The notes: generated by a model from the sequence alone, not told the origin. A stretch of DNA of 64,000 nucleotides from Bacteroidota bacterium (GCA_021779665.1 JAJYAG010000016.1:1-64000), one strand, 5' to 3'; positions 1 to 4,598 are shown, numbered from the stretch's first letter. Program-made: numbers and translations.

Positions 1-151
1 CTTCGTAAGCACGCATCATTAACTCGGACCGATTCAGTCCGAAGGCTTTCACCTGAATAAGTACCCAGCCCGGTTTTACCTTCGGAATTGGAACTTCGCT
101 GACAGTTAGTTCTTCGGGCTGACAGGTTTTATATAGTACTACTGCTTTCAT
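1..151 (-). CDS. Zinc-type alcohol dehydrogenase/quinone oxidoreductase, 5' part only
   Basis: This is the first 50 codons of a gene that leaves the window at its left edge. The start of the protein, MKAVVLYKTCQPEELTVSEV, followed by PGWVLIQVKAFGLNRSE, is typical of the N-terminal GroES-like domain of medium-chain dehydrogenases, which reduce quinones, enals or aldehydes with NAD(P)H. Seen in the sequence: the ATG lies only 3 bases beyond the stop of the radical SAM gene, so the two are almost certainly on one transcript. Whether it binds zinc cannot be told, because the catalytic part is outside the window. It may process the modified peptide, or it may be the redox output of the divergent HxlR regulator. 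The family call is firm; the substrate is unknown. Confidence 0.8.
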   Translation of the reverse strand, partial: MKAVVLYKTCQPEELTVSEVPIPKVKPGWVLIQVKAFGLNRSELMMRAYE

Positions 152-154
152 TTT

Positions 155-1183
155 TTAATTCTCTATTTGTTTCCAACACTGAGGATCGGCACCGTAAAAA
201 TTGTTGGTGTAACCATACGTTACAGCAGGGCAGCCCCGGCAAAATTGTTTCAACTCGCACTTCGAACATTTCTCAAACTTTGAATAATCGCGATAGGCAT
301 CCATCTTTTCGCTGGTAAAAATGTCAAATAACTTTTCGTTGAACACATTCCCAACATTACTTTCAAACCTTCGGCATGCATATGCATCGCCTTTCGGTAA
401 AATAGTCAGATGGCAATTAGCACAGTTGCAGCCTTCGTAAATTAGTTCAGGATCCAAATTCTCTGGTATTTCAAAAAGTCCTTTTTCGTAGAGAAACAAA
501 GTCCACAAGTGGTCTTTCAGATTGAAACTGGTTCCACTGTCTTTATAGGTTTCAAATTTCTGCCAGCAAATCTCCAACAAATCCCGATATTGTTCAGGTG
601 TTAGATGTGCACTTTTCTCTTTACTTGTGGGGCAATATCTGGCAAAAGCGAAAATGTCGGCTTTGTATTCCACCACTAAATCAATTATTCCCGGTATCTC
701 ACTCACATTTGTCCCTGAAACAGTGGTCATAATAGCGCATCGAATACCGGCATTGCGCAACACCTGAATTTTTTCAAGCGTATTATCAAACGACCCTTTC
801 TTTCGGATACCGTCATGAGTTTCACGCAATCCGTCAATCGAAAGTTGATAACGTTCGCATCCGGACTCTTTCAGTCGGCGACAAACTTCATCGGTCAAAT
901 GAAAAGGATTACCCAGAATAGTGAATGGAATGTTGTGTGATTTAAGCAACTCCATAATATCCCAAAAGCGGCTATGCAAAATAGGGTCTCCTCCCGTGAT
1001 GTAAAAATAAGGCAAGCGATTCGCTTTTTCGCAGAAATCCATGCAGTTTGCCAACGTAGATTCTACATCCGCCCAACTCATTTCATGCAATTTAAGTTGT
1101 TTGTTTTCTGAAAAAATGTAGCAATGCTCACAACGTTGGTCGCAACTATCAGTGATATGCCATTGAAATGCAAAATATTCCAT
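155..1183 (-). CDS. Radical SAM/SPASM peptide maturase (ACGX-type system)
   Basis: A 342-residue radical SAM enzyme. The [4Fe-4S]-SAM cluster motif CDQRCEHC is at residues 14-21, and a C-terminal SPASM cysteine cluster runs through CNCANC, CSKCELKQFCRGC and a last PQCW. Such enzymes bind auxiliary Fe-S clusters and often install thioether or carbon-carbon links in ribosomal peptides. The gene directly upstream encodes a short Cys-rich peptide with two ACGA motifs, which fits what I recall as the ACGX radical SAM system in NCBI family naming. A TTG at 1219 would add 12 residues, but it lies in the loop of a hairpin; the ATG at 1183 fits the family start (MEYFAFQWHITD) better. The modification chemistry is not known from sequence. 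Confidence 0.85.
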   Translation of the reverse strand: MEYFAFQWHITDSCDQRCEHCYIFSENKQLKLHEMSWADVESTLANCMDFCEKANRLPYFYITGGDPILHSRFWDIMELLKSHNIPFTILGNPFHLTDEVCRRLKESGCERYQLSIDGLRETHDGIRKKGSFDNTLEKIQVLRNAGIRCAIMTTVSGTNVSEIPGIIDLVVEYKADIFAFARYCPTSKEKSAHLTPEQYRDLLEICWQKFETYKDSGTSFNLKDHLWTLFLYEKGLFEIPENLDPELIYEGCNCANCHLTILPKGDAYACRRFESNVGNVFNEKLFDIFTSEKMDAYRDYSKFEKCSKCELKQFCRGCPAVTYGYTNNFYGADPQCWKQIEN

Positions 1184-1198
1184 GTTGAATTTTTGATT

Positions 1199-1235
1199 GA
1201 AGTCCCGCTGCAAAATCAATTACAGCCGGGACTTC
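1199..1235 (-). promoter_or_regulatory. Hairpin between precursor and maturase genes
   Basis: Two arms, 1199-1210 (gaagtcccgctg) and 1223-1235 (cagccgggacttc), pair over 12 bases with one bulged base. The hairpin sits after the precursor stop codon and just before the maturase ATG. It has no clear U-run after it on the minus strand, so it looks like an mRNA-stabilising or partial-attenuation hairpin, not a full terminator. Such elements are common where a peptide precursor must outnumber its enzyme. Confidence 0.6.
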
Positions 1236-1244
1236 GTTTAATAA

Positions 1245-1466
1245 TTACTTGCCATCACCAGCCCCGCAAGCCGAAGGTTGTGGTTTAGCATCATCACCGG
1301 CGCCACAAGCCGATGGTTGTGGTTTGGCATCATCGCCACCACAAGAAGAACTGCAACCCGAAGCTGCCATAGCCATTTGATTAGAGTTTAAATAACTCTG
1401 TGCGCTGCGACGTGAGAAGTAGCTTCCGATACCAGCCCAGCCATTTAAAAGATTTAACTTACCCAT
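1245..1466 (-). CDS. Cys-rich ACGX-repeat RiPP precursor peptide
   Basis: A 73-residue peptide, the likely substrate of the radical SAM enzyme downstream. The first 40 residues form a leader (MGKLNLLNGWAGIGSYFSRR and on, to MAMAASG). The tail holds CSSSCGG and then a 13-residue unit, GDDAKPQPSACGA, present twice in a row, ending GDGK. So there are four cysteines in all, two of them in CSSSC and one in each SACGA repeat. The repeated ACGA pattern next to a SPASM enzyme is the basis for the call. A promoter box lies 32 bases upstream. The finished product and its role are unknown; no transporter or protease gene is visible in the window. Confidence 0.8.
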   Translation of the reverse strand: MGKLNLLNGWAGIGSYFSRRSAQSYLNSNQMAMAASGCSSSCGGDDAKPQPSACGAGDDAKPQPSACGAGDGK

Positions 1467-1497
1467 AATATTTATGTTTTTAGAATTAATTACGGCA

Positions 1498-1505
1498 CAA
1501 AAGTA
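1498..1505 (-). promoter_or_regulatory. Bacteroidetes -7 box for precursor/radical SAM operon
   Basis: Minus-strand TACTTTTG matches the Bacteroidetes -7 consensus TAnnTTTG. Transcription would begin near 1490, giving a leader of about 25 bases before the precursor ATG. Confidence 0.65.
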
Positions 1506-1656
1506 GAACGTTTTGAAAGTTGCGGAAAATGGGTTAGTTACTTACCTCTTAGGTTAGAATTGCTGGAAAACAATGCATTGGAGAGAGAAAAAAAATAAAA
1601 TATTTTTCAGAGCTAAAATACTGATATATAAAACACTCTCCTAAAGAGATTTTATG

Positions 1657-1664
1657 TAATTTTG
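1657..1664 (+). promoter_or_regulatory. -7 box for the HxlR regulator gene
   Basis: TAATTTTG matches TAnnTTTG. It overlaps the TTG codon at 1662, which makes that codon impossible as a start if this promoter is used and supports the ATG at 1686. It faces away from the peptide operon promoter about 150 bases to the left. Confidence 0.65.
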
Positions 1665-1685
1665 CGCCATAAAAAACTATACATT

Positions 1686-2021
1686 ATGCGTCAATTAGAT
1701 TTAAAATACCCAACCTGTCCCATACGCAACGTACTTAGCAGGTTCAGCGATAAATGGTCATTACTTATTCTGTGCTCGCTCGAAGCCAGTGGCACCATGC
1801 GCTACAAGGAGTTAAACAACAATATCCCCGACATTTCGCAAAAAGTACTATCAGGTACGCTCAAACGATTGGAAGAGGATAAACTGATTGTACGCAAGGC
1901 TTATGCAGAAGTGCCTCCGCGTGTGGAGTATTCACTGACCAATATGGCGCGCGAGATAATGCCTGCTGTACAAATAATGATTGGATGGGCTCAAACTCAT
2001 TTCGAAGAAATAACTAAATAG
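1686..2021 (+). CDS. HxlR-family transcriptional regulator
   Basis: A 111-residue winged-helix DNA-binding protein of the HxlR (DUF24) family. Diagnostic parts are [20 protein letters not shown] at residues 8-27, the MRYKEL helix, [18 protein letters not shown] as recognition helix, and RVEYSLT in the wing. The cysteine at residue 11, in TCPI, matches the conserved redox-sensing cysteine of relatives such as YodB, HypR and QorR (known for the family). The gene is divergent from the peptide/radical SAM/oxidoreductase operon, so it may repress that operon until quinone or electrophile stress occurs; this is inference. It is followed 23 bases later by panB, possibly on the same transcript. Confidence 0.88.
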
Positions 2022-2044: not shown

Positions 2045-2866
2045 ATGTCAACTGCAATTCAGGAAGATAAACGAAAAGTTACAACACATCGTCTCAAGGA
2101 GATGAAAGACCGAGGAGAAAAAATATCTATGCTAACTGCTTATGATTTTTCAATGGCATCAATTATCGATCAGGCAGGAATGGATGTTATTTTAGTAGGC
2201 GATTCTGCTGCAAACGTTATGGCAGGTACTGTCACAACTTTGCCAATGACTATTGAACAAATTATTTATCACGGAGTCTCTGTTATGCGTGCGGTTAAAA
2301 GAGCTTTAGTGGTGGTAGATATGCCATTTGGAACATGTTCGGGCAATCCCATGAAGTCGTTGGATGCAGCCATTCAAATTATGAAAGAAACCGGTGCCGA
2401 CACCCTTAAAATAGAAGGTGGAGAAGAAATAATTGAAGATATAAAAAAAATCATTGGTGCCGGAATTCCTGTTATGGGACACCTCGGCCTTATGCCGCAA
2501 TCGATAAATAAATACGGCACATATACAGTCAGAGCAAAAGAGAAAGAAGAAGCAGATAAACTGATAAGCGATGCATTATTGCTAGAAGAAGCGGGCTGTT
2601 ATGCCATAACATTAGAGAAAATACCTGCTAAACTTGCTGGAGAAATTACAAAAAAAGTTTCAATACCAATTATTGGAATTGGTGCAGGGCCTCAAGTTGA
2701 TGGTCAAGTGTTGGTTATGCACGATATGTTGGGGATCAACAATAGCTTTTCTCCAAAATTTCTAAGGAAATATGAGAATTTGAATGAAATAATAACTAAT
2801 GCAGTTAAACATTATATTTCTGATGTTAAGAGCAAGGATTTCCCCAATGAAAGGGAATCTTATTGA
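2045..2866 (+). CDS. panB: 3-methyl-2-oxobutanoate hydroxymethyltransferase
   Basis: A 273-residue enzyme of pantothenate (coenzyme A) synthesis. It transfers a hydroxymethyl group from methylene-tetrahydrofolate to 2-oxoisovalerate to give ketopantoate in the cytoplasm. Family marks are [39 protein letters not shown], the loop [10 protein letters not shown], and IPIIGIGAG near residue 215. Length is normal for PanB (about 264-275). No panC or panD is seen nearby. A terminator hairpin follows it. Confidence 0.95.
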
Positions 2867-3010: not shown

Positions 3011-4258
3011 TCAACCTGCCGATTGCTTAAGTTTCAAATGAGCTCCATTCCCAAATTTCTCTTTTAGAATCTGCATATCGTTACTTACTTTCAAATCCAG
3101 AATCTTGGCGTAATGCTGAGTTGTCTTGAGATTCTTATGACCAAGCATTTTAGAAACGCTTTCAATCGGTACGCCATTTGAAAGCGTGACTGTGGTAGCG
3201 AAAGTATGCCGGGCAATATGGAATGTCAGTTCTTTGGTGATGCTGCAAGCATCGGCTATTTCCTTTAAATATGAATTCATCTTTTGATTGCTGAGTATTG
3301 GTAGAAGCTTTTCCTGGTTGACTACTTGTGGGTGGTCTTCGTATTTTTCCAATAAATAAGATGCAATGGGAAGAATAGGAATATTGGACCTAGTGTCTGT
3401 CTTTGTCCGATTGATGTAAATCCAGCGGCCACCATCTACACCAATAGCAATGTTCCTTCTGGAGAGTTTCTTTACATCGGAATAAGCCAAGCCAGTAAAG
3501 CAACTGAAAAGGAAAATATCTTTCACCTGATTGAGCCGGTCGGAAACAAATACTTTGTTGAGCATCGTTTCAATTTCTTCCATAGATAAGAATGCGCGTT
3601 CAACTTCAACCATCTTGCTTTTGTAGTTGATAAACGGATTTTTTTGAATCCAACCATTGGCCAGGCAAATCCGGATTATTTTTCCAAAGTTTTTGATGTA
3701 CTTGGATGTCGTGTTTTGACAGCAATTGCAAACGCTCTTCAGGTAAAATTCATAGCTCGTTATGAATTCGTGGTCAATCTTCCTAATGTCGAGGTCGGAA
3801 ACTTTGTATTTCCATTTCAGAAAATCGGCCGTATGCTTCAAAGAGGTTTCGTAACGGACATGTGTTGCAGCTGCGTAATCTTTGCCAATAAGGGCTTTTA
3901 TTTCATCATTATGCTGTTGAAATATGCCGATAATCATGTAACTCCGTTTTTCAATACCCAGGATCTTGTTTCGCATATTTTCGGCATTGACAAGTTCATC
4001 TTCCCGGATAAGTTGCTGTTGGTAGTCGTACACTTTTGCTTTGAGCGTGTCCAAGTAGGAATTTGTGGCTTTTGATTCGGCACTGGTACCCTTCATGCGA
4101 TTGCCTTCGACCGACCATCTTTCAGAAGTGGTAAATCGTTTTGTACTGAGTTCGATACGTTCGCCGTTTACTGTAACGCGAATAAAGATGGGTAGTAATC
4201 CATCAACATTGGTCTTTGTTCTCTTTACGAAAAAGAGAATGGATAGTTTTGTGTTCAT
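3011..4258 (-). CDS. Tyrosine site-specific recombinase/integrase
   Basis: A 415-residue tyrosine recombinase of the Bacteroidetes type. It has an arm-binding N-terminal domain (MNTKLSILFFVKRTKTNVDG), a SAM-like core-binding domain (about 110-210), and a C-terminal catalytic domain. The catalytic set is visible: the Arg region GLAYSDVKKLSRRN, HIARHTFAT, LGHKNLKTTQHYAKI with the nucleophilic Tyr. Length and motifs look intact. It starts 252 bases from a tRNA-Ser gene but reads away from it, and no other mobile genes follow. It could be the leftover of an integrated element, a phase-variation invertase, or a chromosomal integrase of unknown use. I see no paired inverted or attachment repeats around it. 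Confidence 0.85.
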   Translation of the reverse strand: MNTKLSILFFVKRTKTNVDGLLPIFIRVTVNGERIELSTKRFTTSERWSVEGNRMKGTSAESKATNSYLDTLKAKVYDYQQQLIREDELVNAENMRNKILGIEKRSYMIIGIFQQHNDEIKALIGKDYAAATHVRYETSLKHTADFLKWKYKVSDLDIRKIDHEFITSYEFYLKSVCNCCQNTTSKYIKNFGKIIRICLANGWIQKNPFINYKSKMVEVERAFLSMEEIETMLNKVFVSDRLNQVKDIFLFSCFTGLAYSDVKKLSRRNIAIGVDGGRWIYINRTKTDTRSNIPILPIASYLLEKYEDHPQVVNQEKLLPILSNQKMNSYLKEIADACSITKELTFHIARHTFATTVTLSNGVPIESVSKMLGHKNLKTTQHYAKILDLKVSNDMQILKEKFGNGAHLKLKQSAG

Positions 4259-4487: not shown

Positions 4488-4510
4488 GTATGTTATTGAA
4501 ATTCTTTTGG

Positions 4511-4598
4511 CGGAGAGGAAGGGATTCGAACCCCCGGTACCCTTTTGGAGTACACACGCTTTCCAAGCGTGCCTCTTAAACCACTCGAGCATCTCTCC
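4511..4598 (-). tRNA. tRNA-Ser (GGA)
   Basis: The minus strand folds as a class II tRNA with a long variable arm (gtactccaaaagggtac). The anticodon loop is cttGGAaag, reading serine codons UCC and UCU. The acceptor arm begins ggagaga; the 3' end is ctctcc plus discriminator G with no encoded CCA. One acceptor pair (position 7) is mismatched as I read it. Confidence 0.95.

Follow-up and report, generated by a model that had tools for sequence, protein, structure and literature searches.

The ACGX-type peptide encoded at the start of the 64,000-nucleotide stretch of DNA analyzed here (the window) probably serves its own cell's response to oxidants or electrophiles rather than warfare, judging from its genomic context. 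The account that we favor, with slightly more belief than doubt, is a cytosolic, stress-regulated RiPP operon in which a redox peptide matured by a radical SAM enzyme would be derepressed from HxlR control along with a quinone or nitro reductase. A redox or electrophile response, as opposed to antibiosis, is the best-supported view because of the linkage of HxlR and oxidoreductase genes and because of the putative operators. It had already been put forward in a first-pass annotation of this DNA and stands as a probable reading, helped by the family-wide absence of exporters. The ACGX peptide/maturase pair has so far had a family name but no function, and 84 loci in two phyla now tie it to a redox-type repressor, to interchangeable reductases, and often to an ADP-ribosylation pair.

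Literature searches for ACGX, for TIGR04340, and for HxlR with radical SAM or RiPP, which had subscription papers outside their scope, returned nothing on point. The maturase and precursor families are already named, and the HxlR/oxidoreductase/SirTM wiring was not found in the literature searched; what the present analysis adds is the connection to redox genes, the swapping of oxidoreductase partners, the CX3[D/E] rule, and the link to SirTM. Three questions become testable: whether the role of radical SAM peptides can lie in the physiology of stress instead of competition, whether this maturase links CX3[D/E] cysteines through thioethers, and what SirTM/Zn-Macro pairs without GcvH-L have as their targets.

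Gene order at the ACGX locus

Base 1 of the window is base 1 of contig C230 in a 6.9-Mb assembly, and from the contig end the gene order is the MDR start, the maturase, the precursor, a 219-bp divergent region, HxlR, and panB (Table 1), with about 60 bp between precursor and maturase. The positions and strands of the four genes named in the first-pass annotation were all confirmed by ORF calls and family profiles. The cluster had been described as free of transporters and peptidases, which holds for the window, and none is conserved among the relatives (84 loci). The MDR oxidoreductase had been given its right family and place, but it had been missed that the gene is just a contig-cut fragment, reduced to 50 codons because contig C230 ends there. 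This fragment is 72% identical to the start of the full MDR of L006, the nearest relative, and the rest of the gene was absent from every other contig of the window genome when these were searched. Three full-length MDR matches elsewhere in the genome were considered as the missing part and rejected, as they are distant paralogues with 28–30% identity.

Table 1. Features of the ACGX locus, in window coordinates
Feature	Position	Strand	Basis or remark
MDR-family NAD(P)H:quinone-oxidoreductase-like gene, first 50 codons	2..151	-	TIGR02824, 34.6 bits on fragment
Radical SAM/SPASM peptide maturase, ACGX system, 342 aa	155..1183	-	TIGR04340, 593 bits
ACGX-type precursor peptide, 73 aa	1245..1466	-	ORF; homologues at the same position in nearly all loci
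Precursor operon, Bacteroidota-type -7 element (TACTTTTG)	1497..1504	-	TAnnTTTG column conserved in aligned intergenics
Putative HxlR operator TAACCTAAGAGGTAA, dyad ACCTnnnAGGT at 1544-1554	1542..1556	-	Upstream of precursor promoter
Second putative dyad CTCTnnnAGAG, one mismatch, HxlR promoter	1638..1648	+	Window-clade intergenics
HxlR gene, Bacteroidota-type -7 element (TAATTTTG)	1657..1664	+	Sequence reading; CAAA..TA columns conserved
HxlR-family regulator, 111 aa, Cys11-Pro	1686..2021	+	PF01638, 99 bits
Second (paralogous) panB	2045..2866	+	PF02548/TIGR00222; 23 bp 3' of the HxlR stop

Neighborhoods of related loci

The window locus is not a chance arrangement, and its specific neighborhood is found family-wide. 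The set of 84 loci comprised the 80 nearest by sequence from a GTDB scan, three from genomes of the same order, and the window itself, divided between Bacteroidota (56) and Bacillota (28); these loci are mutually related, so that raw counts overstate independence, and some end at contig ends. The system is sparse in the window's order, being present in 4 of 393 sampled genomes, its own included. Partners were assigned by Pfam, NCBIfam, and PDB matches, the oxidoreductases by family and not by structure, and were scored as near when within 4 kb of the maturase (569 kb in total) and as far when more than 5 kb away (497 kb).

HxlR genes were near the maturase in 62 of the 84 loci and far in 2, and an HMM profile count placed them near in 66, when 0.57 of 84 loci would be expected by chance from the density in 14 genomes with one to six HxlR genes each. 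The linkage was seen at 46/56 loci in Bacteroidota and 16/28 in Bacillota. The other recurrent partners (loci near versus far) were the ACGX precursor (67 versus 1), MDR (37 versus 1), a PF00881 nitroreductase (30 versus 1), a flavoprotein that combines PNPOx and 2x[4Fe-4S] ferredoxin domains in one fusion (20 versus 0), SirTM (23 versus 1), and a macrodomain of the Zn type, a protein-ADP-ribose hydrolase (PRK04143; 19 versus 1). In L060 and L065 the maturase is masked by opposite-strand ORFs, and neighbor counts there are low as a result.

An MDR, nitroreductase, or PNPOx-ferredoxin oxidoreductase lies beside 73 of the 84 loci. MDR and nitroreductase largely substitute for one another, occurring together in only 3/84 loci, and whichever is present begins 1–42 bp 3' of the maturase in all measured cases but one. 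Their labels on the maturase tree require at least 10 changes, suggesting that the oxidoreductase partner has been exchanged repeatedly. The earlier reading, which would have been refuted by relatives missing their HxlR and oxidoreductase neighbors, survives this comparison (62–66 and 73 of 84 loci have them); what it had missed are the nitroreductase and SirTM/Zn-Macro alternatives.

The same position and exchange of the oxidoreductase also suit a peptide-derived redox cofactor, that is, a mycofactocin- or PQQ-like electron carrier for the adjacent MDR or nitroreductase whose supply HxlR would time, and the maturase scores 84 bits with TIGR03962, the family of mycofactocin maturases. We consider such a cofactor unlikely, as a peptidase or further tailoring gene is not conserved, the unrelated MDR, flavin nitroreductase, and PNPOx-ferredoxin would need one common carrier, and the number of core cysteines varies, most precursors having between four and ten.

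Genes for export, proteolysis, or immunity are not conserved among the 84 loci, which sets them apart from exported bacteriocin-type RiPPs with their dedicated genes of this kind. Some ranthipeptides and sactipeptides are signals or bacteriocins, and ABC transporter genes do occur at 7/84 loci, so an exported antimicrobial or signaling RiPP whose genes lie by chance in a redox regulon was weighed; with HxlR and an oxidoreductase as the conserved partners instead, we find it improbable.

HxlR was not near the maturase in 18 of the 84 loci, and two of these (L068 and L072) carry a gene for an Rrf2 regulator upstream of the precursor instead; SifR, another Rrf2 protein, is a described quinone sensor (PMC9218516). 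In many Bacillota, the PNPOx-ferredoxin fusion comes directly after the maturase (L055:13560-14183; L077:11051-11662), where it could supply the maturase with electrons or act as a redox partner of the peptide.

HxlR and the divergent regulatory DNA

The window HxlR is the only one detected in its genome (a single match at E<=1e-8) and scores 99.4 bits with PF01638 (cut-off 20.8), while remaining below the cut-offs of the RrpA and RrpB models. The first-pass annotation had described it as divergent and as carrying Cys11 in a TCPI motif, which is correct, and of the 65 linked HxlRs that were aligned, 64 have Cys-Pro; a similar N-terminal Cys is, however, found in 12 of 16 unlinked ones. Cys-Pro is weak evidence alone because it is common in HxlR proteins, and we dropped it as specific evidence for redox sensing. 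A presumed redox-sensing role of the linked HxlRs is instead drawn from what is known of YodB, HypR, and QorR, which are redox regulators of the same family. The window shares with such systems an HxlR protein with an N-terminal Cys, an oxidoreductase operon alongside, and putative dyad operators, and it differs from them in that the unit starts with a RiPP precursor and a maturase and in that redox sensing is putative here. One clade of ACGX-dedicated HxlRs was considered and not adopted: the tree, built on few columns, needs at least 3 changes on the starred branches, and a common origin across phyla is no more than a possibility.

The best-conserved non-coding block in the window clade, TTCTAACCTnnnAGGTnnGT, lies upstream of the -7 box of the precursor, TAnnTTTG, a consensus that we take to be of the Bacteroidota type. 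Dyad counts were compared with dinucleotide-preserving shuffles, and shared descent adds to these counts: ACCTnnnAGGT, with at most one mismatch, is present in 10 of 14 window-clade intergenics (0.47 in shuffles), CTCTnnnAGAG likewise in 10 of 14 (0.35 in shuffles), and GTTACn6GTAAC in 9 of 10 Bacillota intergenics (0.07 in shuffles), with a wider GTTACn14GTAAC-like dyad in most intergenics of other Bacteroidales. The putative operator occurs once in the window, where 0.07 would be expected, and the extended window operator has one exact site in the whole 6.9-Mb genome. We regard the dyads as putative clade-specific HxlR operators in the divergent region and infer that HxlR is a dedicated local repressor with autoregulation. 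An HxlR regulon beyond the locus was rejected, since one-mismatch sites numbered 3 versus 6 for the reversed control and the 2 extras were not credible.

The dyads also bear on the idea of two independent modules, with an ACGX-maturase pair having been inserted into an ordinary HxlR-oxidoreductase pair to which it is unrelated. HxlR genes beside MDR or nitroreductase genes are common in bacteria, which lends this idea some substance, but the dyads precede the precursor, which is the first gene of the unit, and the linkage to HxlR persists in both phyla despite the exchange of oxidoreductases, making this idea the least probable of the explanations weighed.

Precursor peptide and core cysteines

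In the window precursor, a leader (KLNLLNGW...RRSAQSYL) is followed by CSSSC, CGGDD, and two SACGAGD units, and its core cysteines read, in order, CX3C, CX3D, CX3D, and CX3D, with an acidic residue at +4 of all three eligible cysteines (3/3). The peptide has no match to TIGR04341 (cut-off 28 bits) at E<=0.1. The precursor of L008, a close relative, reaches 26.4 bits, also below the cut-off, and other precursors at the same position in Bacillota and other Bacteroidota reach 58–84 bits. A precursor-type ORF lies directly upstream of the maturase in nearly every related locus, and, as position and repeat motif are conserved, the miss seems to lie with the model.

Among 403 core cysteines from 74 precursors, the +4 residue is Cys (174), Asp (162), or Glu (39) in 375, and for cysteines without Cys at +4 it is Asp or Glu in 201 of 229 (88%), although these two residues make up 12.6% of the core. 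The pattern C-x3-[C/D/E] is conserved across loci, and Ala or Ser at -1 and Gly at +1 are nearly invariant. The core cysteines outside CX3C thus mostly follow at sequence level CX3[D/E], the thioether motif of ranthipeptides, in which PapB joins Cys to Asp or Glu within CX3D/E (PMC9413430). A Cys-rich repeat peptide had been recognized in the first pass, and this motif overlooked. If all CX3D cysteines were cross-linked, the window peptide would keep one free thiol only, a point against the reading that we favor.

Maturase

The maturase belongs to TIGR04340 (rSAM_ACGX; E=1.4e-178, with a cut-off of 400 bits), and across the 84 loci, in both phyla, the maturases have an invariant CX3CX2C and the full SPASM cysteine set. 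With a maturase above cut-off and a repeat precursor directly upstream, the window corresponds to the ACGX system (TIGR04340/TIGR04341), from which it differs in the TIGR04341 miss and in the HxlR/oxidoreductase/SirTM context and CX3[D/E] rule, which we did not find described. The best structural match of an AlphaFold model of the maturase (pLDDT 89.9) was CteB (Z 26.6, 3.1 A over 308 residues), with SuiB and anSME tied within Z 1. The alignment begins at CteB residue 92, and the N-terminal part of CteB, presumably the RRE, is without counterpart; on this model the window maturase has no N-terminal RRE domain.

The best-scoring other named radical SAM/SPASM family was SbtM (TIGR04082), at 187.7 bits against a cut-off of 350. 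Its model aligns over the whole window maturase, which has no equivalent of the N-terminal ~200 residues of SbtM. The PapB family NF047865 gave 58.9 bits against a cut-off of 340, and a PapB-type ranthipeptide was dropped on this ground as the class for the window peptide. Similarity to the ranthipeptides freyrasin (PapA/PapB) and thermocellin (CteB) consists of the Cys-x3-Asp/Glu repeats (PMC9413430) and of CteB being the top structural match, whereas the missing RRE, the low PapB score, and the redox-type regulation are differences.

SbtM makes a thiooxazole (PMC11002830), and its rank among the named families would suit a metal or Fe-S ligand peptide, in which thiooxazole-like or metal-binding groups at [A/S]-C-G chelate or buffer metal under redox stress. 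The nearly invariant residues flanking the cysteines and the CX3C pairs, which could bind metal, also fit. However, the SbtM score is far under its cut-off and the SbtM N-terminus is longer, no metal transporter is conserved near the 84 loci, and the acidic +4 position is left unexplained, so we hold a metal-binding role to be unlikely as well. From the CX3[D/E] motif we favor a thioether over a thiooxazole, which is kept as a live rival; the thioether reading may be wrong, as the maturase sequence is nearer to SbtM (188 bits) than to PapB (59 bits).

SirTM/Zn-Macro pairs at ACGX loci

Full-length class-M sirtuins (SirTM), identified by matches to 5a3a (E 2e-74 and 4e-61), are encoded near 22 related loci, mostly with a Zn-macrodomain; such pairs include L010:12824-13711, L016:7670-8530, L017:5047-5895, and L077:12482-13402. 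In L010, L016, and L017, which belong to the window clade, a divergent HxlR is followed on one strand by ACGX, rSAM, MDR, Macro, and SirTM, with one more gene after MDR in L016 and L017; none of the gaps between maturase and SirTM exceeds about 30 bp in L010. The Blautia schinkii order was sampled with 295 genomes, of which 81 have SirTM, 20 have ACGX, and 11 have both (Fisher p=0.008), and in 7 of these 11 the two lie within about 4 kb. SirTM has no match in the window genome, and within the bounds of the contig neither SirTM nor Zn-Macro adjoins the window locus.

Related ACGX operons resemble the described SirTM/Zn-Macro operon (Rack et al. 2015, PMC4518038; PMC11490716) in having SirTM, Zn-Macro, and a redox enzyme, and differ from it in that the ACGX peptide and maturase are present where GcvH-L and LplA were not found. 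A scan of small ORFs in the SirTM loci for size and a lipoyl-like motif detected no GcvH-L, the motif being present only in ACGX itself and in one L080 ORF without a Pfam match, and LplA is not among the recurrent neighbors of ACGX loci. Targets of SirTM/Zn-Macro outside the GcvH-L operon were stated to be unknown in a 2024 Zn-Macro study (PMC11490716), and the ACGX peptide is a reasonable candidate target for the pairs without GcvH-L.

A bolder possibility, which we think rather unlikely, is that ACGX is the ribosomal counterpart of lipoyl-GcvH-L: a thiol/thioether redox carrier that is built by a radical SAM enzyme, comes under HxlR-dependent induction, and receives electrons from an oxidoreductase of the quinone/nitro or flavin type. 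Many lineages would in addition ADP-ribosylate it reversibly, with the neighboring SirTM modifying acidic residues and Zn-Macro releasing it. If this were true, the ACGX peptide would be a substrate of the SirTM/Zn-Macro pairs without GcvH-L. In L064 (3657-3989), two tandem ACGX precursor ORFs precede one maturase, and SirTM genes lie on both sides.

Proposed mechanism

In the stress-regulated RiPP operon that we favor, HxlR would bind the dyads and repress both divergent promoters until quinones or other electrophiles oxidize or alkylate its Cys11 and release it. The peptide would then be made and each of its repeats modified by the maturase, most likely with a thioether from Cys to the Asp or Glu four residues on, and in the CX3C pair the other cysteine would be left free. 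The oxidoreductase may clear quinone or nitro compounds or pass electrons to or from the peptide, and the product would remain intracellular, acting as a redox-active peptide or as a scavenger of electrophiles. Where a lineage has SirTM/Zn-Macro, ADP-ribosylation may switch the peptide.

Genes flanking the window locus

The second panB, which was missing from the first-pass inventory of the locus, is 65% identical to the other panB of the genome. L007, L008, and L012 have the same paralogue at their ACGX loci with 74–82% identity, the other PanB copies in these genomes standing at about 67%; this panB may be a member of the HxlR/ACGX unit or regulon that is specific to the lineage. Farther along, a Bacteroidota-type tyrosine recombinase gene (3011-4258, minus strand) adjoins tRNA-Ser(GGA) (4508-4598, minus strand), suggesting an integrated element whose edge or remains lie next to the ACGX locus.
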